A DNA stretch of 64,000 nucleotides, taken from contig JAUIIY010000004.1 in NCBI GenBank assembly GCA_030431375.1, positions 47,608 to 111,607 on the forward strand, in the 5' to 3' direction. The notes under the pieces are model-generated. The model was given only the letters and a program-made list of their open reading frames with translations. It did not search any database and had not been told where the DNA came from. The position numbers and the translations under genes were made by a program. The number at the start of each line of letters is the position of its first letter. The first letter of the stretch is position 1. The DNA comes from Alphaproteobacteria bacterium. Lineage in GTDB: Bacteria > Pseudomonadota > Alphaproteobacteria > Rickettsiales > JABSSG01. Shown here in pieces: positions 1,000-51,114 of the stretch.

Positions 1000-3900
1000 G
1001 AACATACTGAATAAAGCCCTGAGAATTTTTCTGAGATCGCTTCTAGCTATGATTGTAATTATCCTGGTTACGGCTACACCCATAATTTTTCTTGATTATA
1101 GCTTCACTCTACCAAAATTCGTTACAGAATATTTTTCAAACAAAATCAATAATGCCTTATCAGGCGAAAAGGTAGAAATATCAGATATAATAATCAAAAA
1201 AGAAAAAAACAAAATTCTAATTAGCAGCGCGCAAATTGAATCATTTAATGACAAACAAGAAAAAATCTTCCAGACAGCTCCTATTTACTTCTCTATAGAC
1301 ATCGAAAATATTACAAAACATATTGATATATCTCTAAATGTAGAAAAAATTGACATCAATACAGACTTATTGGAAATCAAGACCCATGAGGATGGTAAAC
1401 AAACTGATGATCTACACCTCTATATACAAAACAAGCTCAAGCTAGGTTATCTTAGAATTACAAATGTAGATTTTGACAATATCTCGCTAAAACGTGATAC
1501 GGCAATTCATAATTTTTCCCTATTCTATAAGAAAGCTGGTTTAGTTCATGATCTTAGCATCTCACATCATGACCAGAAGCTCGCAAAATTTGAGATCGAA
1601 GCAAGCGCACAAGATGATGTTACATATATTAACGGAAAAATAGAGAAATTCCCAATCTGGTCACTTATTACTTTTCTCCCAAAAAATTTCCATACAAATT
1701 TGAGTGAGAATCTAAGTGAGAAATTTCTAGTTGATGGCCACCTTAAATACCAAATGAAAGATAAGAAACCAAATCTTAAATTCACCCTTAATCAAATTAA
1801 AAATCAGGATTTATCTATAAATGGCTTTGATATAATTCTCTCTAACCATGGTAAATATAACTCTATATTTTTTGATAAAATTCAGATCGATACTAATGAT
1901 GGCGGGAGTATATCATCCAAGGGACATATCACTACAAATACTAAACTTATCTCAAAAAACACAAGTCTATTTTTTGATATTTCGGTAAGTAATCTTGACA
2001 CAAAATATATTAGTTATTTCTGGCCTCAAGGAGCTGTCCCAGAAACAAGAAATTGGGTTGTTAAAAGCTTTAAAAATGGAAATATTCACCAAGCAAAAGT
2101 AAAAATAGATTTTAAAGATGTGAATAAGATAAAAAAGGATAATTTTTATGCTTATATTGATTTCAACTCACTAGAATTAGATTATTTCGAGGAACATAAA
2201 TCCCTCACTGATTTGTCTGGGACCGCAAATTTTGATTTAGACAAAGTGACAATCTCAGTTGACAACGGAAAACTAAATTCTGCCGATATAGAGAAATCAC
2301 TTGTGGAGATTGAGTATGGGATCAAAGGTTCACCGATGACTATAAAAACAAATGCCCAAGGCAATGTCAGCGATTTTATTGATCTAATGGGTAAAACTAA
2401 TAAAAACCAATTAATAGATTATGGTGTAAATCTCAACCAAAGTAGCGGAAATCTTCGTTGTTCGGTATTTCTTAATTTCCCTCTCACTGAAAAATTCTCT
2501 TTAGACAAAGCTAAAATTAACGTTAAAGCAGACATTGATGCATTTCAAACCTCTCTGTTTGAAAAAGTTAATATTACTGACGGAGATCTCAGATTAGTGC
2601 TTACTAACGAAAATATGTACATCAAAGGCCCTTTAAATATTAACAATCAAAAATCTAACTTTGAATTCATATCTAATTTAGACAAGAAGAAAGCTTCTTT
2701 CAGAAACAAATTAAATATCGACTCACAAATCGAAAGTAATTCAAATTTCGAAGAAATCTTAAATAATAAATTCAGAATTTTAGACGGCAATGCCCTTTTA
2801 AATATCCATTTTTTAGAAAAGGAGAATATAAAAACCCTTTCGGTTCATGCTGACTTAGATAATGCAGAATTTTATGTTCCTGCACTAGGAATTACAAAAA
2901 ATAAAGATATCAATTCAAATTTGAGTTTCGAAATCGAAAATGTCAAAAATTCCAATTGGATATCAAAACAATTTTCATTTATTTCAGGAGACGGAATAAA
3001 TTTAAATGGACAATTTTCTGCTGATCATAATTTTGATGAAGTACATTATTTATCTCTAAAATTACAATATCCAGAAACAGATTTAGACATTGACTATACA
3101 AATGAGAATAACCTTAAGAAAATCTCTATTACTGGCCCAGAACTTAATCTAGAGAATGCGCATATTAGTGAAATTTTCTCAAATAATAGTTTCAGTTACG
3201 CACCAAGCGCGCCCAAAAAAGAGCCCGCAACTAAAAATTTAGAGATTGTTACTGATATAAAAACAGCAAAAATGAATAATGGTGTATATTTCAAAAATAT
3301 TGTCGGAAAATTTGAGTGTAAAGGATTAGAATGCTCTCAAAGTGAACTAACCATTGACATAGATGAAAAAGCAAAATTAACTGTAACACGTACCTTGGAT
3401 GAGAAAAAGAAACCTAATTGGACCCTAAAAACTACAAATGCTTCAAAACTTCTAACAGGCCTAGGCTTATATCACGATATATTAGGGGGAGAACTATCCA
3501 TAAGGATGTGGAATGCCAATAATAAGAGCGTGCTAATGGATAATAACTCAGTTTTTGTCGGCGAGATGAAAATGGCAAACTTTAAGGTAATAAAAAATCC
3601 TATAATTACTAAACTTGTATCATTTACATCGATAATGGGAATTTTAAATATATTTACCGACATGAACCAAATCCCTTTCAGCTCTGCCGATGGTCACTTT
3701 GTGTTTGCTAATAATGTATTGAGATTAAATAGATTTGCCTTTGCGGGATCATATTTAACAGCATCACTGCATGGAACCGTTGACTGGAATTATAATGATA
3801 TAGATTTATATGGAAAGGTGATACCACCCGTCTATGGCTTTAATGCTATCTTAGCTTATATTCCATTTATTGGTCACAAAACAGCCGATGGAAAAAGTAA

Positions 3901-4009: not shown

Positions 4010-4866
4010 TAAAAATTAACGGATATAGCTGGAAGATTATAAATCTCCTAACTTTTTCTATAATTTCACTCTTAACTAAATCCTTTGTGAAAGATATCAG
4101 TGTTTTTCAGATATTTTTTTGTTTTAAGGCGATAGCGATGGTTATTACATTTTTTGTTTACATAAAAAAATACCGACAATATCCAAAAATCATCACAAAT
4201 TACTTATCTATCGCACGTGCCTTGGTAAATATCACCGCATTAGTTCTCTGGTTCCTAGCAATACGTTATCTGGATATTAGCGATGCAACAATAATCAGCT
4301 ATACCACACCAATTTTTGGCGTCATACTAGGTTATTTTTTATTTAAGGAACAAATTCACTGCAATATTGTTTTTGCGATAATATTCGGTGCCATAGGATG
4401 TTTCATCGTAGTACGCCCAACATTCTCCAATTACACAATTGGCACCTTAGCGGCATTCGCTTCGGCTTTTTTATGGTCTATACATGACAGCATTATAAAA
4501 ATGCAAACAATCAAAAACCAAACAGTGCTTGAAGCAATGTTTCAATCAACTTTTCTTACTTCTCTTATATCATTACCGTTTGCATTGATGAATTGGACAT
4601 CTCCGGACTCCATCACCTCTTCTGCTTTAGTAATTTGTGGTTTGCTATCTTTTGTGAATCTATATGCTCTGGGCACAGCACTTCAAAGGGAAAAAATTTC
4701 ATTCTTAATGCCCATAAGCTTTTTAAGAGTAGTTTTTGTTTCTATTGGGGGTTACATATTTTATAACGAAAAAATTGGACTTGAGCAACTAATAGGTCTC
4801 AGCTTTATTTTACTTTCACATTATTTTATTTTAGAGGGGAAATTTAGAAAATCTAAATACAAATAA
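4006..4866 (+). CDS. EamA/DMT-family membrane transporter
   Basis: A 286-residue protein with about ten hydrophobic segments arranged as two EamA repeats. The first ends near IIFGAIGCFIVVRPTF and the second near GLEQLIGLSFILLSHY, the usual drug/metabolite transporter layout. Rickettsiales carry several such proteins and one is known to import S-adenosylmethionine, but the substrate here cannot be read from the sequence. It overlaps the AsmA-like gene by 4 bp and is the last gene before the tRNA on the opposite strand. Confidence 0.8.
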   Translation: MIKINGYSWKIINLLTFSIISLLTKSFVKDISVFQIFFCFKAIAMVITFFVYIKKYRQYPKIITNYLSIARALVNITALVLWFLAIRYLDISDATIISYTTPIFGVILGYFLFKEQIHCNIVFAIIFGAIGCFIVVRPTFSNYTIGTLAAFASAFLWSIHDSIIKMQTIKNQTVLEAMFQSTFLTSLISLPFALMNWTSPDSITSSALVICGLLSFVNLYALGTALQREKISFLMPISFLRVVFVSIGGYIFYNEKIGLEQLIGLSFILLSHYFILEGKFRKSKYK

Positions 4867-4881
4867 GGAAGCTTGTCTAAA

Positions 4882-4958
<77 letters not shown>

Positions 4959-5026
4959 ATTTAGGAATCAGGTTTTGAAAATTAAATCTATAAGACAAAA
5001 AAGTCAAGAACTAGATTAGCATTATT

Positions 5027-6031
5027 ATGAAAATAGAACAAAATAATATTTTAAACGATAGCCAACAAATTATCTTTGACGAAATTCTTAGAAAGCTGAA
5101 AGAAAAAAGAATTTTAAATATATTCACAAAGACTCCAAAAGGTTTTTATATTTATGGAAGCGTGGGATCTGGAAAAACCTTTCTTATGAGAAAACTTTAT
5201 GAACACCTAAGCGGTAAAAAAAGCTTCTTTCATTACCATAACTTTATGACATATGTACATAATCTGCTAAAGGAAGAAAAGCTGAAAGAAAATAAAATTC
5301 GGCTTGTCGCTAAAAAAATTAGTAGAGAAAGCCAATATATATTTATTGACGAATTAGAGATTTTGGATATTACAGATGCTATGCTAATGAAAGATTTAGT
5401 TGCTCAGATCAATAATAACGGCACCAAAATCTTTTTTACTACAAATATTCCGCCAAATAATTTATATCAAGATGGAATCCAAAGGGAATCATTTTTGCCA
5501 TTTATAGAATATCTAGAAGATAATTTCGGCATTTTCAATTTATCATCAGATACAGATTTGAGAACAACACAAAAAGATAAGAAGAATCAGCATTTTTTCC
5601 ATCCTAATAATGAATCAAATAACAAAATTTTAGAAAAAAAATTATTTAAATTATCCCAAAATCAGGTTCAAAAAGATAGCCTAATAGAAATCAATAAGCA
5701 TAAATTTAACTGCAAATATCTGTCTTCGAATATTATATCTTTTGATTTTGCAGATATATTTGAAGGTAACAGCTCGACAAGAGATTTTGAATTTTTAACG
5801 TCTACATTTCCATTTATAGCAATATTTAATGCACGCAAAATCAATCGAACAGAAAACAATATCATAAAACGCTTTATCAATTTTATAGATTTGGTATATA
5901 TCAACAAAACAAATCTTTTTATATCTAGCGAAGTCGAGGTTTTTGATTTATACAATGAAGGAAGATACGAAAAAGAGTTCAGAAGATGCTCATCAAGACT
6001 AAAAGAGATGGAGTCCTTTTATTATGAATGA
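5027..6031 (+). CDS. zapE: AFG1/ZapE-family ATPase
   Basis: A 334-residue P-loop ATPase. The Walker A motif GSVGSGKT lies at residues 44-51 and a Walker B-like segment YIFIDELEI at about 107-115, followed by the arginine-containing region FTTNIPPNNLY. This matches the AFG1/ZapE family, which in E. coli acts at the division ring and in mitochondria in protein quality control. The length is close to the family norm (about 350). Its end overlaps ispH by 8 bp, so the two are probably translated from one message. Confidence 0.88.
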   Translation: MKIEQNNILNDSQQIIFDEILRKLKEKRILNIFTKTPKGFYIYGSVGSGKTFLMRKLYEHLSGKKSFFHYHNFMTYVHNLLKEEKLKENKIRLVAKKISRESQYIFIDELEILDITDAMLMKDLVAQINNNGTKIFFTTNIPPNNLYQDGIQRESFLPFIEYLEDNFGIFNLSSDTDLRTTQKDKKNQHFFHPNNESNNKILEKKLFKLSQNQVQKDSLIEINKHKFNCKYLSSNIISFDFADIFEGNSSTRDFEFLTSTFPFIAIFNARKINRTENNIIKRFINFIDLVYINKTNLFISSEVEVFDLYNEGRYEKEFRRCSSRLKEMESFYYE

Positions 6032-6956: not shown

Positions 6957-7671
6957 CCTTAGAAATTTCCTTTAATTTATTTTCGGCCTCAAGTAAAGAT
7001 TCTGGGTCTCCAACATGAAACCAAGATGAATTATTGATAAGTCCATAAAATTTCTCAAAATTCATTTTCCTATATATATCCATTACAGATCTCCTTTGCT
7101 TTTCTAAACCAAGAAAATGTTGGGGCTTCGTTATATGCACTCCCGCAAAAACATATTTTTTACATTTATCTTCACTTAATATTATCTGTCCAGAAGGAGA
7201 CAAGTCGAAATCCCCATTTCCGCGGTAACCATCGGCTTTATTAGTTTCATGAAGCAGAAATAGAGAATTCATCTTCTCAGGATCCCAGGTGCTAATCATC
7301 TTAGAATATATATTAGGCTTCGTATTATGGTAAAATAAATTATCCCCATTCACCACAATGAAATCTTTTCCTTCAAAAAAATCTAGCGCATTGATTATTC
7401 CACCTCCAGTTTCTAAAATTTCAGGTTCAAAAGCAAAGATAATTTCAATATTCGTCTTACTGGAATATTCTTCGATGAAATCTTTCACCTTATCAGCTAA
7501 ATAATGTCCATTTACAACAATTCTAGCAATCCCTGCAATGATCAAATCATCAAAGATTCTTTCAAGCATAGATTTCCCATTGATTTTTAACAGTGGTTTA
7601 GGACAATCATTGGTCAATGGTTGCATCCTTTTGCCAAATCCCGCGGCAAATATCATTGCGTGCTTAACCAT
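6946..7671 (-). CDS. murU: Sugar-1-phosphate nucleotidyltransferase, MurU-like
   Basis: A 241-residue nucleotidyltransferase with the signature AAGFGKRMQPLTNDCPKPLL near the N terminus and VVNGDNLFYH (metal-binding Asp) in the middle. Together with the kinase gene directly upstream it matches MurU, which converts MurNAc-1-phosphate to UDP-MurNAc in peptidoglycan recycling. The ATG at 7671-7669 is chosen because it forms a TGATG junction with the stop of amgK; a TTG two codons earlier is less likely. The 3' end overlaps ispH on the other strand. The exact sugar specificity is inferred from the AmgK-MurU pairing. Confidence 0.85.
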   Translation of the reverse strand: MVKHAMIFAAGFGKRMQPLTNDCPKPLLKINGKSMLERIFDDLIIAGIARIVVNGHYLADKVKDFIEEYSSKTNIEIIFAFEPEILETGGGIINALDFFEGKDFIVVNGDNLFYHNTKPNIYSKMISTWDPEKMNSLFLLHETNKADGYRGNGDFDLSPSGQIILSEDKCKKYVFAGVHITKPQHFLGLEKQRRSVMDIYRKMNFEKFYGLINNSSWFHVGDPESLLEAENKLKEISKANL

Positions 7672-8675
7672 CAATCAACCCTTATAAATGGAATTTTCTC
7701 CTCTATCATCCATTTTTTCATTTCATATAAAACAGGATGATTGATTGAATCATTTATGTATGACCACACTCTGGGCAGATATTGTAAGTAATGACTATTT
7801 TTGTCTCTTATCGATTTCCTAGTAAATATTCCTATAATTTTGCAATTTCTTTGCAATCCAAGAATAGCATAATCAGATAGAAACTCTTTGTATGAAATAT
7901 TTTCAGAATTACTTATGTAATAAGTAATCATTTTTTCTCTAAAAGGCCTACGAACTTCTATTCTAGCATCTTCTAGCAATGAAACCAGGTCATATGCATA
8001 TGAACCCAGAACAGCATCTTGGTAATCTAACAAACCTATTTCTTGCGATGGTTTCCGCCCCGGCAATAACATAAGATTCTCTACGTGATAATCTCTAAGT
8101 ACTAAAGTATCCTTTTTATAATATATTTTCTTGAATAAACTCTTCCAAATTCTTATAAAATTTTCTTTACCTTTATCAGACAAGCCAAAGCCAAATAAGG
8201 CCGGATAGTACCACTCCACAAATAACAACACTTCACTCATAAGTTTCTCTTCGTCATACTCTTCGAGATACATGTTAGAATTGTTATGAGATCTTTTTTG
8301 AATGGAAATAAGAGTATTGATAATTTTCTCATATATTTCCGTGGATAAATTAGGATGCGCAATAAGAATATTTTTTATTAAATTATCCCCAAAATCTTCT
8401 ATTATGGCTAAACCATTTTTTTTATCCAGAGCATAAATCTGAGGAGCAGAAAAACCAAAATCCAATAGGATTTTCGTTACTGTCACAAATGGACTAATAT
8501 CTTCACATTCTGGAGGTGAATCCATCAAAATGTAACTTTTCTCTCCATGCAAAATTTTGTGATAACTTCTAAACGAACAATCGACAGGCAGACTCTTAAT
8601 TTGATAATCGGATGCAGATAAGTGCAAGATTTTCTCTATAAATAATTTGTATTCTCCTTCTCTATTATTTTTCAT
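7671..8675 (-). CDS. amgK: N-acetylmuramate/GlcNAc kinase, AmgK-like phosphotransferase
   Basis: A 334-residue aminoglycoside-phosphotransferase-fold protein. The catalytic loop VLRDYHVENLML and the metal-binding segment IGLLDYQDAVLGSYAYDLVSLLEDAR are clearly readable, and the N-terminal lobe has SFRSYHKIL and YILMDSPP. In Pseudomonas and many alphaproteobacteria AmgK phosphorylates recycled MurNAc or GlcNAc at C1 for MurU. The gene lies between tsaE (11-bp overlap) and murU (1-bp overlap), so it is clearly within an operon. Confidence 0.87.
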   Translation of the reverse strand: MKNNREGEYKLFIEKILHLSASDYQIKSLPVDCSFRSYHKILHGEKSYILMDSPPECEDISPFVTVTKILLDFGFSAPQIYALDKKNGLAIIEDFGDNLIKNILIAHPNLSTEIYEKIINTLISIQKRSHNNSNMYLEEYDEEKLMSEVLLFVEWYYPALFGFGLSDKGKENFIRIWKSLFKKIYYKKDTLVLRDYHVENLMLLPGRKPSQEIGLLDYQDAVLGSYAYDLVSLLEDARIEVRRPFREKMITYYISNSENISYKEFLSDYAILGLQRNCKIIGIFTRKSIRDKNSHYLQYLPRVWSYINDSINHPVLYEMKKWMIEEKIPFIRVD

Positions 8676-9093
8676 ATTGCTCTATCTCAACAATCCTTTG
8701 ATTATGATTTATCTGCTTTAATTTTACTACTGTAAATTTTTTAGGCAAAAAACTATATATGATTTCTGGCCACTCTACCAAAGTAATTCCCCTCTCCATA
8801 TTTTCAGTAAAATTAATTTCTTCTAATTCCTCTAAATTCTTTACTCTATATAGGTCATAATGGAATATTTTATATCCTTCTGGCTCATAAATATTTAAAA
8901 TTGGATATGTAGGGCTCACTACCTCTATATCAGAAGAAAACTGGCGCACAAAATATTTTACAAAACTTGTCTTACCCGCTCCTAAATCACCGATAAGCAA
9001 TATAACATCACCAACCTTGACATTTTTTGCTAAGCTTGCCGCTAACTCACCGAGTGAATCTTCCGAATCAATTGTCTTATTAATTTTCTTCAT
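8665..9093 (-). CDS. tsaE: tRNA t6A37 synthesis ATPase TsaE
   Basis: A 142-residue P-loop protein with GDLGAGKTSFVKYF (Walker A), VVSPTYPILNIYE (switch-like segment) and the C-terminal HYDLYRVKNLEELEEI and GITLVEWPEII blocks of TsaE/YjeE. TsaE is the ATPase partner of TsaB-TsaD in threonylcarbamoylation of A37 in tRNAs reading ANN codons; the precursor enzyme TsaC is encoded at 22381-22959. It overlaps the kinase-like gene upstream by 4 bp and amgK downstream by 11 bp, giving tight translational coupling. Confidence 0.93.
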   Translation of the reverse strand: MKKINKTIDSEDSLGELAASLAKNVKVGDVILLIGDLGAGKTSFVKYFVRQFSSDIEVVSPTYPILNIYEPEGYKIFHYDLYRVKNLEELEEINFTENMERGITLVEWPEIIYSFLPKKFTVVKLKQINHNQRIVEIEQYEK

Positions 9094-11300
9094 AGAGAAT
9101 TTTTTTTGGGCAAGAGAATTTTTATTGATATAACATTTTTATCTGAGTGGAAATGTATTCTTCCGCTATGTAAATCAATAATAGTTTGCAGAACAGATAG
9201 CCCACTATTAATAGAAGGTTTTAAAGTCATAGCTGATATGTTCTCCATAAATTTATCTTTCACTATTTTTACTATCTCATAATCTTTCAAATATATATTT
9301 TCTAACGAAATTTCAACATATGACTTGCTCTCAGTGTATTCGATATCTACACCTTTCTCAAGGTCAGAAAATTCTGTTACAAACTGAATGAATTTTTTTA
9401 TAGCATGAACTAATCTATCTTTGTCACAAAAAACTTCTACTTTTGCAAAATTATCAACCAATTTATAGCGCCCTTTAAAATCAACTAACGATTCATGCAA
9501 CATAGTTTTACAGTCATTTTGCTTCTTATTTAAAGATATGTGTCCGGCTTCAATAGAAGCTAAATCGATAATGTCGTTAATTATATCAAGTAAAGTATCT
9601 GACGATTCTGTTATAGCTCTCATATAGTTTTTTTGTTTCTCATTCAACTCACCTGCATATTGGTAAGATAAAATCTCGGCATATCCTTTAATAGAAGTTA
9701 GCGGCGATCGCAACTCATATGAAACATTATTAAGGAAATCAGTTTTTAGCTTATCGACCTTCTCAAGAGCAATATTTTTTTCTGTCATACTTCTTTCAAA
9801 CAAGGTCGCCTCGGTGATATCTTTTGTATTAAGTAATGTCGCTCCATCGGGTAATGACATCATCTTCATACTAAAAATTTTTCTATCTTTTGTTTCCAAA
9901 TTCAATTCACTACTTTTTTGATGATTAAAGCATTTGAAAAAATTATCTTCAAATTTTTGATATATATTATCTTCAATTTTTGACTTAACGTACTCAAAAA
10001 AATCCTTGAAATGAAAGTTTTTAGCAAGCTTTCTTAGTCCCCACATTTTCTTTATTTGAGGATTTAAAATTGCCACTTTTCCGTTCTCAGAAAAAACTAT
10101 TACTCCATCACTTAAACTATTTATTGTTTTTTGCTGAACTGCGCTTTGTGTCTGATAAGAGCTTTTGAAATGATATTTATCCGTCATATCTTCATAACAA
10201 AAAATCAGCCCACCAAATGCGTGTTGCACAATTACTACCCTGATTACCCTTCCATCCGGAAGAAACAAGAAGTCACTATGCGGCATTAACAACTCCTGAA
10301 AGAACGATATTCTCTCTGCTTTGAAAGACTTATAATTAATATCTTCTGGAAATATTCTTCTTGACTTTAATTCATCTAAAATTTCTTCGTATGTCATGCC
10401 TTTGGAAATGCTATCAGCATCTAAGTCCCACATTTTTAAAAATGATGGGTTATAAAATTTTAAATTCCTATCCGCATCATATATAGCAAAGGCATTTGAC
10501 GAAACTTCAAGCAGCTTGGATAATGATGCCAAATATCTTTTAGACTCATCTTCATATTCTTTTATTTTGCGTTGATCTAGAGCTATATAACATGTTGAAT
10601 TGTCCTCATTATTATATTTCTTGATCGAATAATTACTCGTATTTTCCTCATTATCATCTTCATCGATATATTTACCTGATTGCAAAAAATTATCACATGC
10701 AGAATTTTTATAGGTAATATCATCGTTTTGATTTTTCACCCATATCGGCACATCAATTTTATCTAATGACGATTTTATTAATTGTAGGTCTGATTGTAAT
10801 TTTTTGTTATTTTCCTTAAGCCGATCAACTTTTACTCTGTCCCGTGTTATATCAGCAAAAAAGATAAAAAATGATTTTGCATATCCTTTTTTATCTTTGA
10901 GAACCATATATTGGCAACTCATATATTTCACACCCTGATCATTCGAATCATCTTTTAAATTGATCTTCAGCGCCCAATCAATTTCATACAGCTTTTCACT
11001 TTCATTTTTCTGAGCTTCATCTAGTTTAGAGTAGAAATTCTCTAAATTCTCTTTATTGTCTTCCCTTAGTGCAACCAATAAATTATCAAAACTATTATCT
11101 TTATTCTGAATATTAAGTAATTTTTTTAACTCTGAAGAGATATATTCTTTTTTATTTTGGAGATCTTTAAAATAGAAAAATTTATAATCAATGTCAGCGA
11201 AATCAAAAACTACATCGACGTTATACTGGCAGTTTTTTTTATAGAAGAAATATATAAAAAATACGAAAACAAATAGAAATAGTATAGAAATATAGACCAC
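9090..11300 (-). CDS. divL: DivL-like PAS-domain pseudo-histidine kinase
   Basis: A 736-residue protein with an N-terminal membrane segment (about residues 1-20) and PAS-type regions. One is around FAIYDADRNLKFYNPSFLKMW and another around GVIVFSENGKVAILNPQIKKMWG. A kinase-like core follows. The phosphoacceptor segment reads NVSYELRSPLTSIKGYAEIL, with Tyr528 where kinases have His. This is the hallmark of DivL, which in Caulobacter modulates the CckA-CtrA pathway. The ATP-binding part is eroded: the N-box asparagine is missing in DRLVHAIKKFI. The size matches DivL (about 770), and the tsaE-amgK-murU neighbours resemble other alphaproteobacteria. Translation probably starts at a GTG preceded by GAGG. 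Confidence 0.82.
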   Translation of the reverse strand: MVYISILFLFVFVFFIYFFYKKNCQYNVDVVFDFADIDYKFFYFKDLQNKKEYISSELKKLLNIQNKDNSFDNLLVALREDNKENLENFYSKLDEAQKNESEKLYEIDWALKINLKDDSNDQGVKYMSCQYMVLKDKKGYAKSFFIFFADITRDRVKVDRLKENNKKLQSDLQLIKSSLDKIDVPIWVKNQNDDITYKNSACDNFLQSGKYIDEDDNEENTSNYSIKKYNNEDNSTCYIALDQRKIKEYEDESKRYLASLSKLLEVSSNAFAIYDADRNLKFYNPSFLKMWDLDADSISKGMTYEEILDELKSRRIFPEDINYKSFKAERISFFQELLMPHSDFLFLPDGRVIRVVIVQHAFGGLIFCYEDMTDKYHFKSSYQTQSAVQQKTINSLSDGVIVFSENGKVAILNPQIKKMWGLRKLAKNFHFKDFFEYVKSKIEDNIYQKFEDNFFKCFNHQKSSELNLETKDRKIFSMKMMSLPDGATLLNTKDITEATLFERSMTEKNIALEKVDKLKTDFLNNVSYELRSPLTSIKGYAEILSYQYAGELNEKQKNYMRAITESSDTLLDIINDIIDLASIEAGHISLNKKQNDCKTMLHESLVDFKGRYKLVDNFAKVEVFCDKDRLVHAIKKFIQFVTEFSDLEKGVDIEYTESKSYVEISLENIYLKDYEIVKIVKDKFMENISAMTLKPSINSGLSVLQTIIDLHSGRIHFHSDKNVISIKILLPKKNSL

Positions 11301-15395: not shown

Positions 15396-18300
15396 TTAAC
15401 TAACTAAAACTTCACCTTTCTTTATAGATACGACTAGCTGAGAATAATCAATTTCTTCTAATGATCTAATCGAATCTATGAATTTATTATAAACATTTAT
15501 TTTACTTTTATTCAAGTCACACCATTTATCTAACATATTATTTGTTGGTACTTTTTTCATTGTGTTGATAATAATGGTCGTTAATGTTCTTTTTTGATCA
15601 TATATATCATCTTTAATTGTTTTAGTAAGCATCCTCTTCCAGTAACCATCAGTTTGCAAGGCTGAGGCCTTATTGATAAGCCAATCATAGTAAAATTTCT
15701 GACCAACTGAGAAATAAACTTCAACTGCATCGCTAACAGAAACATTTGCTTGAATTGAAACATTCGCAATATCCATAGCAGAATATAGATCCTCTAATAT
15801 TGCTAATTTCCTTGCGAAATCTTCGGATAAACCCTTTTCTTTATATGCTTCTGTAGCCTTATTGAATTTTTTTGCTTTAAATTTTTCGATAAAAATATGA
15901 ATATTATCGATCAGATAACCGACCTTTTCAGAATAAATACTTATAGTTTCCTCTACATCAAGAGGTTGCTCGATATTTCTGAGGAACCAATAGATAGAGG
16001 TCTGCATAAATAATCTTATTTTATAATATATTTCTAATCTTAAACTATATTTGGAGATTAGTTTGGTTTCTCTCCACAACTCTTCTAATTTAAAGATTTC
16101 CCAAACTATATGATATGATCTTACAATATCGCACCCTTGCAGCCCTGAATAGCCTTGCGCATCATGGAAAAAATATGATCCTATATGGTTCACTATATGA
16201 TTTGAAACACCAGTAATGATGATTTCTTTACGCAATTTATGATTTAGAATTTCATCCATGAAATCATCTTGCATTTTAGATGGAAAGTAATTAACCAGAT
16301 ATTTTTTAAAATATTCATCTTCGGCAAGCTTGGAATTTATCAAATTTTTATATATTGATAATTTACTATATGCTAAAAGGACCGATATTTCGGGCCTTGT
16401 AAAACCTAGCTTCTCATGTCCTCTCCTTGCAATTTCGAGTGAGTTTGGTAAAAACTCTAATTCAGGATTCAAGTTAATGCTTTCTTTCAGCTGATCAATC
16501 AATTTTGTTTTAATTTCAAAAAGATTTATACTAGCCGAATGCGATATAGAGATAGCAGTATTTTGGAGCAAATTATCTTTCAGCACTAAGTCGGCAACTT
16601 CAGACTGCATCTGATCAAGAATCTTATTTCTTTCTACAATATCTATTTTGCCTTTTTCAATAGCATCACCAAATGCAATTTTTATATTCACTTCGTGGTC
16701 TGAACAATCCACCCCAGCAGAATTATCAATAAAATCAGTATTAATAATCCCACCATTAAGAGCATATTCAACCCTTCCTAGCTGTGTAAAGCCTAGATTT
16801 CCTCCTTCTCCTACTACTTTACACTTTAGATCATGACCATTCACCCTCAAATTGTCATTTGGTTTATCTCCAACATTTTCATGCGACTCTTTCGAAGATT
16901 TGACATATGTCCCAATACCACCATTCCATAATAAATCAACAGATGCGCATAGAATTTTCTTAATTAAGTGATCAGGTTCAATTTTTGCTTCAGAAATGCT
17001 GAATAAGTCCGCCATCTCCGGCGTAACATCAATATATTTGGCCTTACGGCTAAATACCCCTCCTCCTGGACTAATTAGGTCCTTATTATAATCCTCCCAA
17101 CTCGATCTAGGCAGATCAAACAGACGTTTTCTCTCTTTATAAGAGCTAGCTGCACAAGGATTGGGATCAACAAAAATATGCATATGGTTGAAAGCTGCAT
17201 GTAACCTTATATGCTTTGAACAGAGCATACCATTACCAAAGACATCTCCGGACATATCTCCTATTCCTACTACCGTAAAATCATCTTGATCTACATCTAG
17301 ATTTAGACTTTTAAGATTCTCAGAAACTGAGACCCAAGCACCTTTTGCCGTAATACCCATTTTTTTGTGATCGTAGCCTGCTGACCCACCTGAAGCAAAC
17401 GCATCGCCTAACCAAAAATTGTAGTTCTGTGATATCTCGTTCGCTGTATCTGAAAATGTAGCCGTTCCTTTATCTGCAGCTACTACCAGATATGGATCAT
17501 CTTCATCATAGCAAATAACATCTTGTGGTTTAACAATCTCGTTATTAACGATATTGTCTGTTATATCCAGTAAACCCGATAAGAAGACTTTATATGCTTT
17601 TATGCCAGCTGCAAAAATTTCATCTCTAGAATGATATTCATCCATATTCTTAAGCACAAATCCGCCTTTTGAGCCATCGGGAACAATTACAGCGTTCTTT
17701 GTCATTTGCGCTTTCATTAGTCCTAGAACCTCATTCCTATAATCTTCTGGATGATCTGACCATCTCAATCCACCGCGTGAAACTTTTCCTCCACGCAAAT
17801 GTATCCCTTCCATTACAGAAGAAAATACAAAAATTTCTTTGAAAGGTATAGGTAGTGGTATATCTATGATTTTTTGTGAATCAAACTTAAAAGATATATA
17901 ATTTTTAAACTCACCATGAGTATCTTTTTGGAAAAAATTCGTTCTTACAGTATGATCAATAACATCAATAAGTTTTTTAAACACTTTGTCTTCAATGTTA
18001 TCTAGTACTTTCTCTAACTCTGCTTGAACTTCATGTCTAACCAATTCAATTTTCTTCTGGCCGTTCTTTTTCTCAAATTTACTGTAGAAATATGCAACTA
18101 TTTTTCTAGTCAGAATAGGATGCTTGACTAAGGTGTTTTTTATAAATTCCTGACTATGTGGTGTTTTGATTTGCAACAAATATTTACAATATGCATTTAG
18201 TAAATATACCTGACGCCAGTTTAGGTTAGCATTAAGTATCAAATTATTGATCAGGTCATTCTTCAAAACTCCCTGATACACTCTAGCAATTGCGTCCTCA

Positions 18301-43023: not shown

Positions 43024-43253
43024 TATTACTTTTCACTCCCTGATATTGCGGTAACATTACAAGAAGCAATTATCATCCGATTATTAATTGAGTGTAGTCC
43101 AACACACCCAGAAATACAGCGCAACCTCTATAAAAAACAAATGTTTATTCCTTAATAAAATTTTAATTATTTCGGGATTGAAGCGCATTACAAACCATGC
43201 TACTTGTTCTATTTAAAATTGTTATGAATAAAACTTAAGAAATGGAGATTAAA

Positions 43254-44522
43254 ATGGGAAGTCACTACAAAATATTATCCATCAATGGCGGTGGAGTTCG
43301 GGGTATAGTGCCTGCTAAAATAATAGAACGTATTACCACTATCACGGATAAACCTATACACGAGTTGTTTGACTATGTCATTGGCACGTCAGCAGGAGGA
43401 ATAATTGCTGTCTCACTGACTGTTAAAAATGAAGATGGAAGCCCAAAATTTTCAACAAGTGATGTAGTCCAGATTTTTAAAGAGGAAGTCCAGCAAATAT
43501 TTTATCCTGGACACTTTGAGGGATGGCCTGTCTTATCCATAGCAGAACAGTTTTTTCGTGGGATAGGCCAATTTTTTGCACCAAAATATTCTAGGGATGG
43601 GATAGATAATTTATTAGAGTTAAAATTGGGAGACGCAACTTTTCTAAATACTACCATGCCTGTTACGACAGTATCATATTCTTTGGATTCCGATGGACCA
43701 AGACTTTGGTCAAAATACAGAGCTGAGAATGAGCCTGACTACCATAATTATTTATTGAGAGACGCTGCTGGTGCTACTAGCGCTGCCCCAACATATTTTC
43801 CACCTAAGATTACAAAAACAGCATCCGGAGAAGTGTTTCATGATATAGACGGAGGAATATTTGCTAATTCTCCAACTATGATAGGTGTAAGCGAGTTCTT
43901 AAAAGCTCAAACTATTCAAATGCACTCCGACAAGGTAACCGTCTTATCTATAGGAACTGGGAGGTTCAAAGATAATCCTGGAATGGCTAGTAAAGAAGAT
44001 AGCTCCATATTCAGTGATTTACCAATTGGGCCAGGCTTAACAACTGGTATAGCAGCATGTGCCTTAAGTTTAGGTTATTCAGTAAAAACAGGGATGATAG
44101 GGGTAGGAATTGTCATACCTCTTTGTGTGTCCGGTATGGTTGTTGGAGGATTATGGGACGGGTATAGTAATTTCGGCGGTCTTGGTTGGATTGCTCATCA
44201 TGGCCTAGTTGACAAAATGATGAAGGGAGCTGAAATATCAGATGCTTTCCAATCTAAGTTAGTAGATGTGATTAGAATCAACCCAGTATTTGACCAAGAG
44301 TATAGCTCTATGGATGATAGTAGCAAGACTCACTTGCAACGGTTCGAAAAAGAAATTGATAATTTTATTAAGAAACACAATAAAGTTTTAGGTGAAGTCG
44401 CACGCTGTCTTGAGTCTCAAGAAGGTGAAGATGAGTGTGTCAGTGCAAGAAGCCACACTGCACAATTTGGAGAGGATTTTTATGTGGAGCTCACTGGCTC
44501 AACTCATCATATTGACTTTTAG
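43254..44522 (+). CDS. Patatin-like phospholipase with hydrophobic insert
   Basis: A 422-residue patatin-fold lipase. The oxyanion motif GGGVRG is at residues 12-17, the nucleophile elbow GTSAGG at 44-49 (Ser46), and the catalytic Asp in DIDGG at 199-201, so the dyad is intact. After the core a hydrophobic stretch (about 261-304, starting GLTTGIAACALSLGY) with two membrane-like segments is unusual. There is no signal peptide. The second in-frame ATG is preferred since GGAG (43244-43247) lies six bases upstream. Rickettsial patatins are secreted phospholipase A effectors, so a host-directed role is an attractive inference. A small acidic gene and a 678-aa protein follow. Confidence 0.85.
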   Translation: MGSHYKILSINGGGVRGIVPAKIIERITTITDKPIHELFDYVIGTSAGGIIAVSLTVKNEDGSPKFSTSDVVQIFKEEVQQIFYPGHFEGWPVLSIAEQFFRGIGQFFAPKYSRDGIDNLLELKLGDATFLNTTMPVTTVSYSLDSDGPRLWSKYRAENEPDYHNYLLRDAAGATSAAPTYFPPKITKTASGEVFHDIDGGIFANSPTMIGVSEFLKAQTIQMHSDKVTVLSIGTGRFKDNPGMASKEDSSIFSDLPIGPGLTTGIAACALSLGYSVKTGMIGVGIVIPLCVSGMVVGGLWDGYSNFGGLGWIAHHGLVDKMMKGAEISDAFQSKLVDVIRINPVFDQEYSSMDDSSKTHLQRFEKEIDNFIKKHNKVLGEVARCLESQEGEDECVSARSHTAQFGEDFYVELTGSTHHIDF

Positions 44523-44577
44523 TGTTTTTTGTGTGAAAGTTGTATCAAACGATGATGTGTAAATTGTGAGGCACAAG

Positions 44578-44823
44578 ATGGAAAATCTAGAAGATAAAAA
44601 AAGGGCGTTCTTTGATACAGTAAGAGATATGGACTTGGAAGCAATCAAAGAAAAAACCCGTCAACTCAACGAGGAAAAGGATTTCGTATCTAAAAAGGAC
44701 GATATAAGCGGTTTCGAGAGAGATTTGGCTGATGCAAGCGAGTCTGTATCCCCAGAAAATAAAGCAGACCTGACAAAGATTGCTGGTGAACTCGGGATTG
44801 AACTCAACGAATCGGATACATAG
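44578..44823 (+). CDS. Small acidic helical protein, unknown
   Basis: An 81-residue protein, very rich in Glu, Asp and Lys (MENLEDKKRAFFDTVRDM), predicted all-helical with a central charged stretch. GTGAGG at 44566-44571 lies six bases upstream of the ATG; a GTG inside that motif is unlikely to be the start. The gene lies 55 bp after the patatin gene and 11 bp before the 678-aa gene in the same direction, so the three probably share a transcript. The size and acidity resemble secretion chaperones or immunity proteins, but there is no direct evidence. Confidence 0.6.
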   Translation: MENLEDKKRAFFDTVRDMDLEAIKEKTRQLNEEKDFVSKKDDISGFERDLADASESVSPENKADLTKIAGELGIELNESDT

Positions 44824-44834
44824 CCACTAAGGTA

Positions 44835-46871
44835 ATGAACATTCAGTATCGCGAATGTCCAAAGGCGTTTGATTCCAAGGCTGATGCTGACCTATCGGGA
44901 GTGAAGTATCATGCTTTGGTATGCGGTGTTAATTATTTGGATTTTTTATATGGCGGATTACCGCTCCCGAAGGCTTTAGAAGTTTCTGAGGGGTTTAGGG
45001 ATCTCGCAGGCTGTAAGTTTGTGATATCGAAATTCAACAAAACTTTCCCTTCCGATGTATACCCTGATACAACCCCAGTGGAAGTCAACCTCAAAAGAGC
45101 GGTATCATATTTTGACATTGAAGGACTTAAATATATAGCAAAAGGAAGTGGTCTCAGCTCTCATTTACAGTTTTATGATGAAATTGATCTTGATACCAAT
45201 GAGAATAAAATAATCTTTGCAATTGATATGGGAGATTATGAGGGAGTCAAATTAGTTACTTCAAATAACCACTTATCTGACAAAGAATATATAACGGCAG
45301 TTAAATATAGTTATTACAAAGAACAGCTAGATATTGCCGAATATCTTGTCTCCCATAGCATCAACAAACTCGATAGAAGCAGCCTATTTCAAGCAATCTT
45401 TTCTGGTATATTACGTTCTAACCCAACAGTTACCCACTACCAATATGATGAACATATTGATAGTCTAAAAAACATTGATGACGCGTTCCCCGACGTAGCA
45501 TTAAAAAGCTTAATAGATGCCATATACACTATTCAGAACGATACAAGGAATACTCCCCCCATAAGGAAGTCTGTATATAGTGACGTTGACATGAGCGCCT
45601 CTCATTTAAAGGATATTGTGAGTTTCAATTTATTCAATGAGAGAGATCAACATTTTACTGTGAAGGATGTAGTCTCTTTTTTGGGAGCAAAAAACTCCTA
45701 TAATAACAAAATAGACCTATTCTTACCATTGTCAGGTTTCTTTCCTGTAGGACCGTTCTATTCATATTTCAAGATAGATGATCTTTTTAAGAATCATAGA
45801 GTGTATATCCCAATAGTTTTGCCCAACTTTGCACCCTCATTTTTTCATGAAATCTCCCATGCCCTAATATATTGTTTAATTGGTAATAACGGCCTTCCAT
45901 ATTTTGAAACACCCATTGATATGGAAGAAGATTACCGAGAGGCAAGTGATAAAAGCTTAAGGAATGTTTTTGTAAATTTTACCTATGGTGACTATGGTAG
46001 TTATGAGGAAATTGGCTTGAGAAAACTATTGTGGTTAAATCATTGGTACCAATCTTCGAATAAATCTGTCCCCCTAACTGAAAAGCTTTTTAATGTCTAT
46101 TTTTCGGCTAATGTGAGTCTGGATCTTCATAAAAAAACTCTGATTCTGGAAAGAAAGCACCAAGATATATCGCAAAAATATAACTGGACAAATAGTCATA
46201 TATACGTATTAGAGCGGCTATTTGAGTATACGAGAAGGGATGAAACGGTTAAAGATCTAGAATTTATTGTCAGAATCCCAGAATTATTCGTAGCAGGGGT
46301 GGAAGATAATATAATGGACAATTTTCTACCGATCATAAATTATTGGTATAAATACATTTCTCCGAAAGTAAATGAGGTTAGAGACATACATTTTTCTAAC
46401 TGTAAAAAACATATTTTGGACCAAAAAACAGCTGAAGGATGTATGCTTTTCGCATTATCATCCAAACAAGTGTACGAGCTATGGAAAGTGATCATCGATC
46501 ATCATTGTGATGAATGTTTGGCGCAAATTTATTCAAATGATTTCCTAAAAGAAGCTCTCCCCATCGCTCAAAGAACCGAAATTCTTTCATATACTGCCAG
46601 CAAAGTAAATTACTGCGTGGAATATTGTTTTGATGATGGGAATTGCACAACCATTCCAACAAATAAAGGGTGGTTTGAACACGCATTTCAGGCCATAAAA
46701 GGCCTATTTGGTCTCAGCTACTGCACAAGAGTCTCACATGGTGATTCTGTAAATACAGAACATATCCTTATCCAAACCATTCTCTCTAATGAACCAGATT
46801 TACTAGATATGAGCGCCACAGACCCTTTTGTATGTGTATCGGGAGATAATTCAGCAAATACAGACCTCTAA
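44835..46871 (+). CDS. Large protein with HExxH motif and ankyrin-like region, unknown
   Basis: A 678-residue protein not recognised as a known family. Residues about 90-185 (IIFAIDMGDYEGVKLVTSNN and KEQLDIAEYLVSHSINK) look like degenerate ankyrin repeats. At 338-342 it has HEISH, a zincin-type HExxH in a hydrophobic context (FFHEISHALIYCLIG), followed by the acidic stretch around EEDYREASD (364-372) that could supply a third ligand. The C-terminal third contains many Cys and no obvious domain. There is no signal peptide. It closes the patatin module and could be a protease effector. This is inference from motifs only. Confidence 0.65.
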   Translation: MNIQYRECPKAFDSKADADLSGVKYHALVCGVNYLDFLYGGLPLPKALEVSEGFRDLAGCKFVISKFNKTFPSDVYPDTTPVEVNLKRAVSYFDIEGLKYIAKGSGLSSHLQFYDEIDLDTNENKIIFAIDMGDYEGVKLVTSNNHLSDKEYITAVKYSYYKEQLDIAEYLVSHSINKLDRSSLFQAIFSGILRSNPTVTHYQYDEHIDSLKNIDDAFPDVALKSLIDAIYTIQNDTRNTPPIRKSVYSDVDMSASHLKDIVSFNLFNERDQHFTVKDVVSFLGAKNSYNNKIDLFLPLSGFFPVGPFYSYFKIDDLFKNHRVYIPIVLPNFAPSFFHEISHALIYCLIGNNGLPYFETPIDMEEDYREASDKSLRNVFVNFTYGDYGSYEEIGLRKLLWLNHWYQSSNKSVPLTEKLFNVYFSANVSLDLHKKTLILERKHQDISQKYNWTNSHIYVLERLFEYTRRDETVKDLEFIVRIPELFVAGVEDNIMDNFLPIINYWYKYISPKVNEVRDIHFSNCKKHILDQKTAEGCMLFALSSKQVYELWKVIIDHHCDECLAQIYSNDFLKEALPIAQRTEILSYTASKVNYCVEYCFDDGNCTTIPTNKGWFEHAFQAIKGLFGLSYCTRVSHGDSVNTEHILIQTILSNEPDLLDMSATDPFVCVSGDNSANTDL

Positions 46872-46916: not shown

Positions 46917-47297
46917 TCAAAAACCAATTTTCGTATGGTGCAAATTATAAGCCGTTTCCTTGCTATCACCTTTATTTTGGTTATTAGCTAAATTTATCTT
47001 CACCCGCGAAATAATAAAAGCTGACAAAGCCGTATTAATTGGCTTCCTATTCAAGTTACGCAGCTGATCTAATAACTCCTTTGCTTTTGCATGAAGTGGA
47101 TTATTATCATCAAAAGCTTTCATTGCTTTTTGAAATTCATCTTCTTCAATTATAGCAAGTGTCATCGATATCATATTGAGCCCAAGATTTTTCTCTTTCG
47201 ACATCAGCATAATAAAAGTACTGATCAACGTCTCAATTACTTTCTGTTCAACCGGATTAGCATTAATTAATCTGTTGTTAGTAGTTGGCTCAGTCAT
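46917..47297 (-). CDS. Hypothetical protein A of an overlapping pair
   Basis: A 126-residue, largely helical protein with a moderately hydrophobic segment around VIETLISTFIMLMS and charged flanks. No domain is recognised. Its start overlaps the stop of the next upstream gene by 4 bp on the minus strand, which is strong evidence that the pair is translated together. It ends 45 bp from the 678-aa gene on the other strand. The pair could be an antitoxin/toxin-like or effector accessory pair, but nothing in the sequence decides this. Confidence 0.5.
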   Translation of the reverse strand: MTEPTTNNRLINANPVEQKVIETLISTFIMLMSKEKNLGLNMISMTLAIIEEDEFQKAMKAFDDNNPLHAKAKELLDQLRNLNRKPINTALSAFIISRVKINLANNQNKGDSKETAYNLHHTKIGF

Positions 47298-47611
47298 TTA
47301 GTTTTTGATACCTTTCTCTTTTTTCTAGGTAAATTATTATCATCTAAATCGAGCGGTGTCTTCAAATGTTTTTGTAAAACTTGCAAAATTTCATGATCTA
47401 CTGTTCCAATTTCTTTAACAACCTCCTTTACAGATTGATGTAAAACTTCAAATGGATTAAAAAAATTACTTACTTCATCTACTTCTGAAGCTGTTAACAC
47501 CATACCGTCAGCATTTGTCATAGCCTCAGCTACGGATTCAGGTGGAATTATTCCGTCTAATAACTTTTCGGCACTCATATTATTCTTACGCATCCTTATT
47601 GTTGACGACAT
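47294..47611 (-). CDS. Hypothetical protein B of an overlapping pair
   Basis: A 105-residue protein with a mixed acidic core (VAEAMTNADGMVLTASEVDEV, residues about 26-46) and a Lys-rich C terminus (NNLPRKKRKVSKTK) resembling a nuclear-localisation-type basic cluster. Several Met codons near the start make the exact start uncertain (47611 or 47578). No family is recognised. It shares a 4-bp overlap with the preceding entry. Confidence 0.45.
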   Translation of the reverse strand: MSSTIRMRKNNMSAEKLLDGIIPPESVAEAMTNADGMVLTASEVDEVSNFFNPFEVLHQSVKEVVKEIGTVDHEILQVLQKHLKTPLDLDDNNLPRKKRKVSKTK

Positions 47612-49906: not shown

Positions 49907-50983
49907 CTAGAACTTAACGCCTGAAGCATATATAGCCCTTGCAAGCGAATCAAGGCAAACCGCAATTGATTGAGGAGTAATTGAAATAGCACTATCACCT
50001 GCATCATCTATCTCATATTTGTTCTTAGGCAAAGAATTCTCTGCAATAATTCTTTGATAAAAATTAAATGGCTGATTTGAAATTAAAAGCAATCTTGGCT
50101 TATGCTTTTTGTTAGAAAATCTTTTACCAAATTCTTTTTCAAATTGTATATATGTGTCCTGCGTATTTGGTCTTTTACCTTGTGCATTCTTAGGGGTATT
50201 GACATCAAACACATCAATAATATGGTGTATTTTGTACATCTCCACAAGAGTACGACCAAGAGTCATCTCAGTAGGCCATTTAATGGGAGGGAAATTGTTC
50301 TGATCCAAATAATTATTAGGACTTTCAAATATATCAACTATTTTCTTTCTAATTTTATTAACTTCTTCGGAGGTGTTTTTCTCAAAAACTTCTTTAGGTA
50401 AGTGCTCGTTAATTATCTGACATGTTTTTTTATATATTTCTTTTACAGACAAAGGCTTAGATCGCGCTTTACTGGCAATAAATTCAGCTACCAAGATAGG
50501 AGTAATTGGCTCATGTTTTGGCCATAAATCCCTACTCCCACTTAAAATATACATTTCATCCACTTCATATCCATTATGTAAAATTTCAATGGCTGTTTTT
50601 ACTCGCCTCTCAAAACTTTCTTGAGCAGCTCCTAGCAGTAACATTGCATCATATTTTTGATGTTTAGGCCTTATGGCATTAAAAAACTGTAAACAATCTA
50701 GATATTTAATTATTTCAGACAAATATTTTGTTACATATTGCGGAGGTACATATTGTAATCTTTCAACATTTTTGGGGCGCAGCATGTTTTCTTGACACAT
50801 CTGATTGAGCCATTTATACGCCTCTTGCTCCGAAGAAAATTTCATTGACTCGCACCAAGCACTAGATCTACTTGTATCAAAATTAATATTATTCTTCTCG
50901 CAAAAAATAATATATAAAATATTTTTTATGGCATTGCCTTGTTCACCTCTAAAACCAATCTTTTTCAGAACTTTTTCTAACAT
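49907..50983 (-). CDS. Hypothetical protein with YdcF/DUF218-like motifs
   Basis: A 358-residue protein. Residues about 111-151 (YDAMLLLGAAQESFERR, with YILSGSRDLW following) and about 296-311 (PRLLLISNQPFNFYQR) recall the two halves of the DUF218/YdcF Rossmann fold (LGxG...R, SGG, then LLVTS), but the central part differs and the function of that family is poorly known. No signal peptide is present. The ATG at 50983 is preferred to an upstream GTG. The protein stands alone, with no operon partner on its strand. The family call is tentative. Confidence 0.6.
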   Translation of the reverse strand: MLEKVLKKIGFRGEQGNAIKNILYIIFCEKNNINFDTSRSSAWCESMKFSSEQEAYKWLNQMCQENMLRPKNVERLQYVPPQYVTKYLSEIIKYLDCLQFFNAIRPKHQKYDAMLLLGAAQESFERRVKTAIEILHNGYEVDEMYILSGSRDLWPKHEPITPILVAEFIASKARSKPLSVKEIYKKTCQIINEHLPKEVFEKNTSEEVNKIRKKIVDIFESPNNYLDQNNFPPIKWPTEMTLGRTLVEMYKIHHIIDVFDVNTPKNAQGKRPNTQDTYIQFEKEFGKRFSNKKHKPRLLLISNQPFNFYQRIIAENSLPKNKYEIDDAGDSAISITPQSIAVCLDSLARAIYASGVKF

Positions 50984-51114
50984 CACTTTTATTCAATTTT
51001 TTGGTGCAAATCTGATTGTAACAAAGAAAATAGTTTTTTGTTATTTTTAATAATATTGAATTATATAGCTGACTAAGAGAGCCCCCCTCAACAAAATAAT
51101 AATTTTGATGTATA

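Follow-up and report, generated by a model that had tools for sequence, protein, structure and literature searches.

A recurring gene triplet encoding a patatin, a small acidic protein, and an HExxH protein in Rickettsiales: a possible type IV effector cassette

Introduction

Effectors of the patatin and ankyrin types are already familiar from the order Rickettsiales, and the passages of PMC10847448 and PMC11077975 that deal with them present ankyrin-like repeats and patatin enzymes as typical of host-directed effectors in the order. Rickettsia secretes patatins without Sec signals, as described in the relevant part of PMC3688537, and the corresponding parts of PMC3688537 and PMC11077975 tie both Pat1 and Pat2 to phagosome escape, with Pat1 entering the host cytoplasm. 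The effectors of protist-living Rickettsiales are little known. Dedicated partner proteins for the type IV effectors of these bacteria are, to our knowledge, not known. Here we analyze a module of three genes, for a patatin-like phospholipase, a small acidic protein, and a protein with ankyrin-like repeats and an HExxH motif, in a stretch of 64,000 nucleotides (the window) from contig C4 (JAUIIY010000004.1) of a 1.41-Mb genome (G000) that, like Candidatus Bandiella, belongs to the Rickettsiales. The literature that we searched, mostly open papers, contained no description of the triplet or of the HExxH family.

Results

In the window, thiD is followed by the three genes, which share a strand and are separated by 55 and 11 bp in the list of open reading frames (ORFs). 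These genes, their overall extent, and their gaps had been proposed by a first-pass annotation made from the sequence and were borne out by the ORF check. The features of the module are as follows (aa, amino acids; pLDDT, predicted local distance difference test; pI, isoelectric point).

43254..44522, plus strand: patatin-like phospholipase gene (422 aa; Ser46/Asp199; PF01734; model mean pLDDT 83.8)
44019..44168, plus strand: patatin residues 256-305, a hydrophobic hairpin insert (hydropathy peaks and predicted helices)
44578..44823, plus strand: small acidic protein gene (81 aa; ORF; ribosome-binding-site-like GAGG; pI 4.39; homologues at the same place in genomes G047 and, borderline, G140)
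44835..46871, plus strand: ankyrin-like plus HExxH protein gene (678 aa; ORF; family alignment of 15 rows)
44889..45359, plus strand: degenerate ankyrin-like repeats, about residues 19-175 (D-x-x-G-x-K units; Ank_2 match below cut-off; helical hairpins in the model)
45846..45860, plus strand: HEISH motif, residues 338-342 (H338, E339, and H342 invariant in 15/15 rows)
46260..46286, plus strand: EFIVRIPEL motif, residues 476-484, with E476/E483 as candidate third zinc ligand (both invariant in 15/15 rows; helix 470-486 of low confidence)

Sequences resembling ribosome-binding sites (GGAG, GAGG, and AAGG, respectively) lie a few bases 5' of the patatin, small-protein, and HExxH starts. The mechanical ORF of the patatin opens at 43242, and we prefer the ATG at 43254 because GGAG lies just upstream of it and the G047 homologue begins at the equivalent codon. 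For the small protein we use the ATG at 44578, the mechanical ORF opening with a GTG at 44566. Promoter and terminator scans of the module gave results near chance level and were not used.

The triplet recurs

The same three genes, in the same order and on the same strand, are found in three genomes of the Rickettsiales: that of the window, a Rickettsiales metagenome assembly (G047, contig C68, CANDYO010000068.1, locus L030), and G140 (contig C2, locus L074), where the agreement of gene coordinates identifies the contig as the 136-kb plasmid NZ_CP104165.1 of Candidatus Bandiella numerosa. The three genomes fall in three families (coded f1, f25, and f9, respectively), which supports the earlier claim of a three-gene module; the annotation would have abandoned that claim if the genes never occurred together elsewhere, and in both G047 and the Bandiella plasmid they do so outside the window's family. 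Candidatus Bandiella numerosa belongs to the Midichloriaceae and comes from an algal (Cryptomonas) culture, and the record of its plasmid annotates the triplet as a patatin-like phospholipase and two hypothetical proteins. Between the window and G047, identity is 65% for the patatin and 44% for the HExxH protein, which thus diverges faster. The gap between the patatin and small genes is 55 bp in the window and 53 and 18 bp in G047 and G140, respectively. A second copy in G047 (contig C9, locus L031), at a contig end, consists of a broken patatin end and an intact small gene.

We searched 343 genomes of the order with a profile of the patatin subfamily (18 rows), and three of them score above 290 bits, a line set after the gap in the scores was seen; all three carry the triplet. 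The next score, 240, belongs to a shorter protein of 354 aa with a hydrophobic N terminus and no small gene directly downstream.

Several observations concern mobility. Transposase genes flank the Bandiella triplet on both sides, toxin-antitoxin genes lie near it on the plasmid, and two pairs consisting of a small gene and an HExxH gene have mobile-element genes upstream, one (G047 C155) a phage-type integrase and the other (G029) a serine recombinase. The distribution across the order is patchy. In the window, the G+C content is 0.40 to 0.41 in the first half of the module and mostly 0.32 to 0.37 in the surroundings, and no module gene lies 3' of thiD in any of the four family relatives with thiD, over the roughly 2 to 4 kb inspected (a fifth relative gave no thiD match); both the shift in composition and the module-free thiD loci fit acquisition. 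A search of 72,556 plasmid records with the window HExxH protein gave no match, a result that excludes close relatives only, since NZ_CP104165.1, one of those records, carries a distant one. Among viral contigs, neither the patatin pair nor the HExxH protein had a relative. About 55% of the length of the patatin is matched by seven phage records, six being Wolbachia phage WO.

The patatin and its hydrophobic hairpin

The patatin domain is certain (PF01734, E 4.7e-18, 66.5 bits against a gathering score of 27.7), and Ser46 and Asp199, the dyad that the first-pass annotation had called intact, are invariant in 35/35 aligned homologues. The unusual hydrophobic insert that it had pointed out is also real: hydropathy peaks at residues 256-274, 266-284, and 282-300, the last with a 19-residue mean of 2.22, and the model places helices at residues 261-279 and 284-305. 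With a cut of 1.3 on the 19-residue mean hydropathy, the insert is found in 18 of the 19 subfamily members (P0008 barely passes at 1.36, and P0016 lacks it), C-terminal to the catalytic Asp in 15 members and between the catalytic Ser and the Asp in the other 3 (G140, P0020, and P0021), never at both places. It is predicted to be a membrane-docking element, and selection may have kept one membrane hairpin wherever in the patatin fold it was placed. Among solved structures, single-sequence and fold comparisons of the patatin both rank potato patatin first and CapV/CapE-type lipases next; fold matches to ExoU chains are weak (E 0.014 and 0.047).

The HExxH protein and its family

The HEISH motif lies at residues 338-342, where the first-pass annotation had placed it, about 0.04 HExxH motifs being expected by chance in a protein of this composition. 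The motif is kept in all 15 aligned relatives, and the invariant residues of the alignment are H338, E339, H342, R461, E476, and E483. This alignment omits short pieces, repeat-only matches, and frames like L080, L062, and L058. The gluzincin-type signature, HExxH plus a conserved downstream glutamate, is present in 15/15 rows, of which two (L032 and L075) were chosen with the motif in view. A third zinc ligand had been proposed near residues 364-372, and this position is not supported: it has two nearly invariant residues, Y367 and A370, but no acidic residue conserved in the 15 rows. Because these residues keep no acid, E476 or E483, which sit 134 and 141 residues past H342 in a helix (470-486) predicted with low confidence, would be the likelier third ligand.

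The AlphaFold model of the protein, built from four sequences, has a pLDDT below 50 at residues 232-363 and is better in the helical repeats. Since the model is too weak at the putative zincin core, fold matching cannot give a verdict on it, and it is conservation, not structure, that points to a zincin fold. The possible metalloprotease of the first-pass annotation keeps the support of the conserved HExxH motif and glutamates. The HExxH domain fits none of the Pfam, NCBIfam, or PADLOC models, and PDB sequences gave no convincing match, the best (E 0.027) being a designed binder. The ankyrin-like repeats, also proposed earlier, are recognizable as degenerate D-x-x-G-x-K units at residues 19, 56, 94, and 134 but do not reach the Pfam cut-off (Ank_2, E 0.0085, 17.1 bits against a gathering score of 27.3).

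At the protein level, P0002 and P0003 were the only relatives of the window HExxH protein among the best 7995 candidates, those sharing the most words, of about 5.8 billion proteins. In the order, the HExxH profile has matches (E 1e-3) in 32/343 genomes, in some of them confined to the repeats. In the search for relatives outside the order, 3/385 genomes of the class match at 1e-5, two from the window's family (one being the window's own genome) and one, with a weak match, from another family. A motif scan of 12 further loci, made without alignment, found HExxH in an open frame in 11, and L080 and L062 also contain the second motif. The family tree is poorly resolved and is compatible with either a single gain or several gains of the small gene.

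Two side observations concern this family. Five of the 15 HExxH proteins end in Asp/Glu-Leu, compared with 6 of 191 background ORFs (Fisher p 0.0004), an unexplained feature noticed after the fact; the same ending occurs in 4 of 120 patatins, and we do not build on a shared C-terminal signal. In the window's family, locus L032 (G002) has a patatin (4045-5292), an 884-aa protein (7127-9781) that by eye is glycosyltransferase-like with a DxD motif, and an HExxH member (15625-17322), all within 13 kb.

The small acidic protein

Between the patatin and HExxH genes, the window encodes a protein of 81 aa with a pI of 4.39. A gene for an acidic protein of 68 to 99 aa lies directly 5' of the HExxH gene at 7 of the 13 genomic loci of the alignment (the window, G047 C68, G047 C155, G029 C23, G140, G142 C79, and G032), and eight small proteins span a pI of 4.4 to 5.3 (for two of these, the calculation lacked one residue). 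Under the strict rule applied to the controls the count is 6/13, because G029 qualifies only with an internal start codon for its HExxH gene, against 0/108 for other large ORFs in the fetched loci. A small acidic protein encoded beside a putative client, the arrangement associated with secretion chaperones, is what the layout of the window and of 7/13 HExxH loci presents, against 0/108 controls. The chaperone of ExoU is small, acidic, and encoded next to ExoU. Upstream of the seven small genes there is a patatin in three, a contig end at 260 bp in one (G142), and no patatin in three.

Neighboring genes and other loci

Directly after the module, two overlapping small genes lie on the minus strand (46917-47297 and 47294-47611), with no Pfam match over the cut-off, and farther on the same strand a 359-aa protein (49907-50986) has a subthreshold DUF218 match (E 0.035). 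Large frames with His/Asp/Cys stretches lie beside both G047 copies (L031, 2522-5998; L030, 5688-6728); they resemble Ulp1-like proteases by eye, which Pfam did not confirm. Elsewhere in the Rickettsiales, locus L020 (G050) has a pair resembling a cyclic oligonucleotide-based antiphage signaling system (CBASS), with a patatin (999-2087) and a DncV-like cyclase (2090-3205).

Discussion

We read the triplet as a horizontally moving, probably cotranscribed cassette of type IV effectors and their dedicated acidic partner, with the effectors delivered into a eukaryotic host, and we give this interpretation, drawn from sequence comparison, about an even chance. A search limited to VirD4-type coupling proteins found a full-length one in each of the seven genomes checked (494-519 bits), and G047 has an additional, shorter VirD4-type frame 3.3 kb downstream of its module. 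The first-pass annotation had denied signal peptides to all three proteins; judged by hydropathy alone, this stands for the two proteins covered, the patatin and the 678-aa HExxH protein. It had also left the choice between an effector and a defense-like module, and of these we favor the effector because VirD4-type proteins are present in 7/7 genomes, DncV-like cyclases are absent from 3/3 module genomes, and the patatin is under the CBASS cut-off; CBASS defense is unlikely for the triplet. Overall, the genes and the HExxH motif of that annotation are confirmed and its module is supported; the position of its third zinc ligand is not.

As an effector cassette, the three genes would probably form one transcript, and the lipase and predicted metalloprotease would leave via a type IV secretion system into the eukaryotic host. 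There the patatin would dock to host membranes by its hydrophobic hairpin and cleave phospholipid acyl esters, the ankyrin-like N terminus of the HExxH protein may bind a host target, and a putative zinc site (ligands H338, H342, and either E476 or E483; base E339) would cleave the bound target. The small acidic protein would likely be a dedicated holding chaperone or inhibitor, keeping its partners inactive and export-ready inside the bacterium.

Several results weigh against this interpretation. The HExxH gene is also found without a patatin (G029, G047 C155, and G032), and there is no small gene at 6 of 13 HExxH loci (G010, two in G036, G154, G002, and G142 C58). Likeness among the small proteins is clear between the window and G047, borderline for G140, and not seen elsewhere. 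The zincin core is not resolved in the HExxH model, whose fold matches are generic helical or helical-repeat proteins and include no metalloprotease. PADLOC phospholipase effector models match the patatin with E values down to 8.3e-51, and the NCBIfam CBASS_lipase model matches it at E 2.8e-44, below its cut-off. Lastly, the part of PMC10847448 that treats secretion in Bandiella reports an incomplete set of type IV secretion genes; a VirD4-type gene is nonetheless found there.

The first two of these points would be expected if two independent effectors were neighbors, a patatin acting alone and a self-moving pair of small and HExxH genes that joined it later, and the faster divergence of the HExxH protein (44% against 65% identity) also fits. 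We consider this unlikely, given that gene order and short gaps (55, 53, and 18 bp) are kept between distant families, that all three strong subfamily patatins sit in the triplet, and that the G047 remnant (L031) also joins a patatin to a small gene. It is likewise improbable, in our judgment, that a mobile element carries the triplet as an addiction or toxin-antitoxin-like module, in which one or both enzymes would poison the bacterium and the small acidic protein would serve as antitoxin or immunity protein. Such a module would suit a small, acidic, fast-evolving gene directly 5' of the HExxH gene, the plasmid setting with toxin-antitoxin genes close by, the integrase or recombinase beside two pairs, and the patchy distribution, but the six HExxH loci without a small gene argue against it, as do the ankyrin-like repeats and patatins, typical of host-directed effectors in the pertinent passages of PMC10847448 and PMC11077975. 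A CBASS-type anti-phage system, with the patatin as a CapV-like lipase triggered by a cyclic nucleotide, is disfavored to the point of being very improbable, in spite of the profile matches given above and of CapV and CapE structures among the best patatin fold matches, as the patatin scores 151.7 bits against the NF041079 cut-off of 200, potato patatin outscores CapV by single sequence and by fold, and a search covering the DncV-like clade (plus SMODS in G000) found neither a SMODS domain in G000 nor, with G050 as positive control, a DncV-like cyclase in any of the three module genomes. The independent-effector and toxin-antitoxin-like explanations take most of the remaining odds.

Returning to the effector cassette, a more specific proposal, which we put forward tentatively and hold to be rather doubtful, is that one acidic chaperone serves both a membrane-inserting patatin and a member of a new family of ankyrin-guided zinc proteases, in a plasmid-transferable operon of protist-dwelling Rickettsiales by which membrane damage and host-protein cleavage would be delivered together. 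If our interpretation is right, the triplet would be a compact effector operon, the HExxH family without a Pfam model would be spread over the order, and the lipase subfamily would carry one hydrophobic hairpin at either of two positions of the fold, making membrane docking by the hairpin testable.

Comparison with known systems

The CBASS lipases CapV and CapE have the patatin fold and dyad in common with the window patatin and give strong profile matches to it; they differ in that the window patatin is under the curated cut-off and the module genomes are without a DncV-like cyclase. In Pseudomonas aeruginosa, ExoU and SpcU pair a patatin effector with a dedicated secretion chaperone, as we propose here, according to the part of PMC3498133 that describes them, but they belong to type III secretion and include no HExxH partner, and the fold match of the window patatin to ExoU is weak. 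Pat1 and Pat2 of Rickettsia are, like the window patatin, Rickettsiales patatins with a Ser/Asp dyad and no Sec signal, and Pat1 is secreted into the host cytoplasm and plasmid-borne in some species, as stated in the sections of PMC3688537 and PMC11077975 devoted to them; those sections do not report either protein with a small acidic or HExxH gene, and the window subfamily has the hairpin in 18/19 members. The HExxH protein is comparable in plan to RARP-2 of Rickettsia, a type IV effector that, in the part of PMC11077975 concerned with it, also joins ankyrin repeats to a protease domain; in RARP-2 a clan CD cysteine-protease-like site is N-terminal and the ankyrin repeats are C-terminal, whereas here the HExxH domain comes after the repeats.

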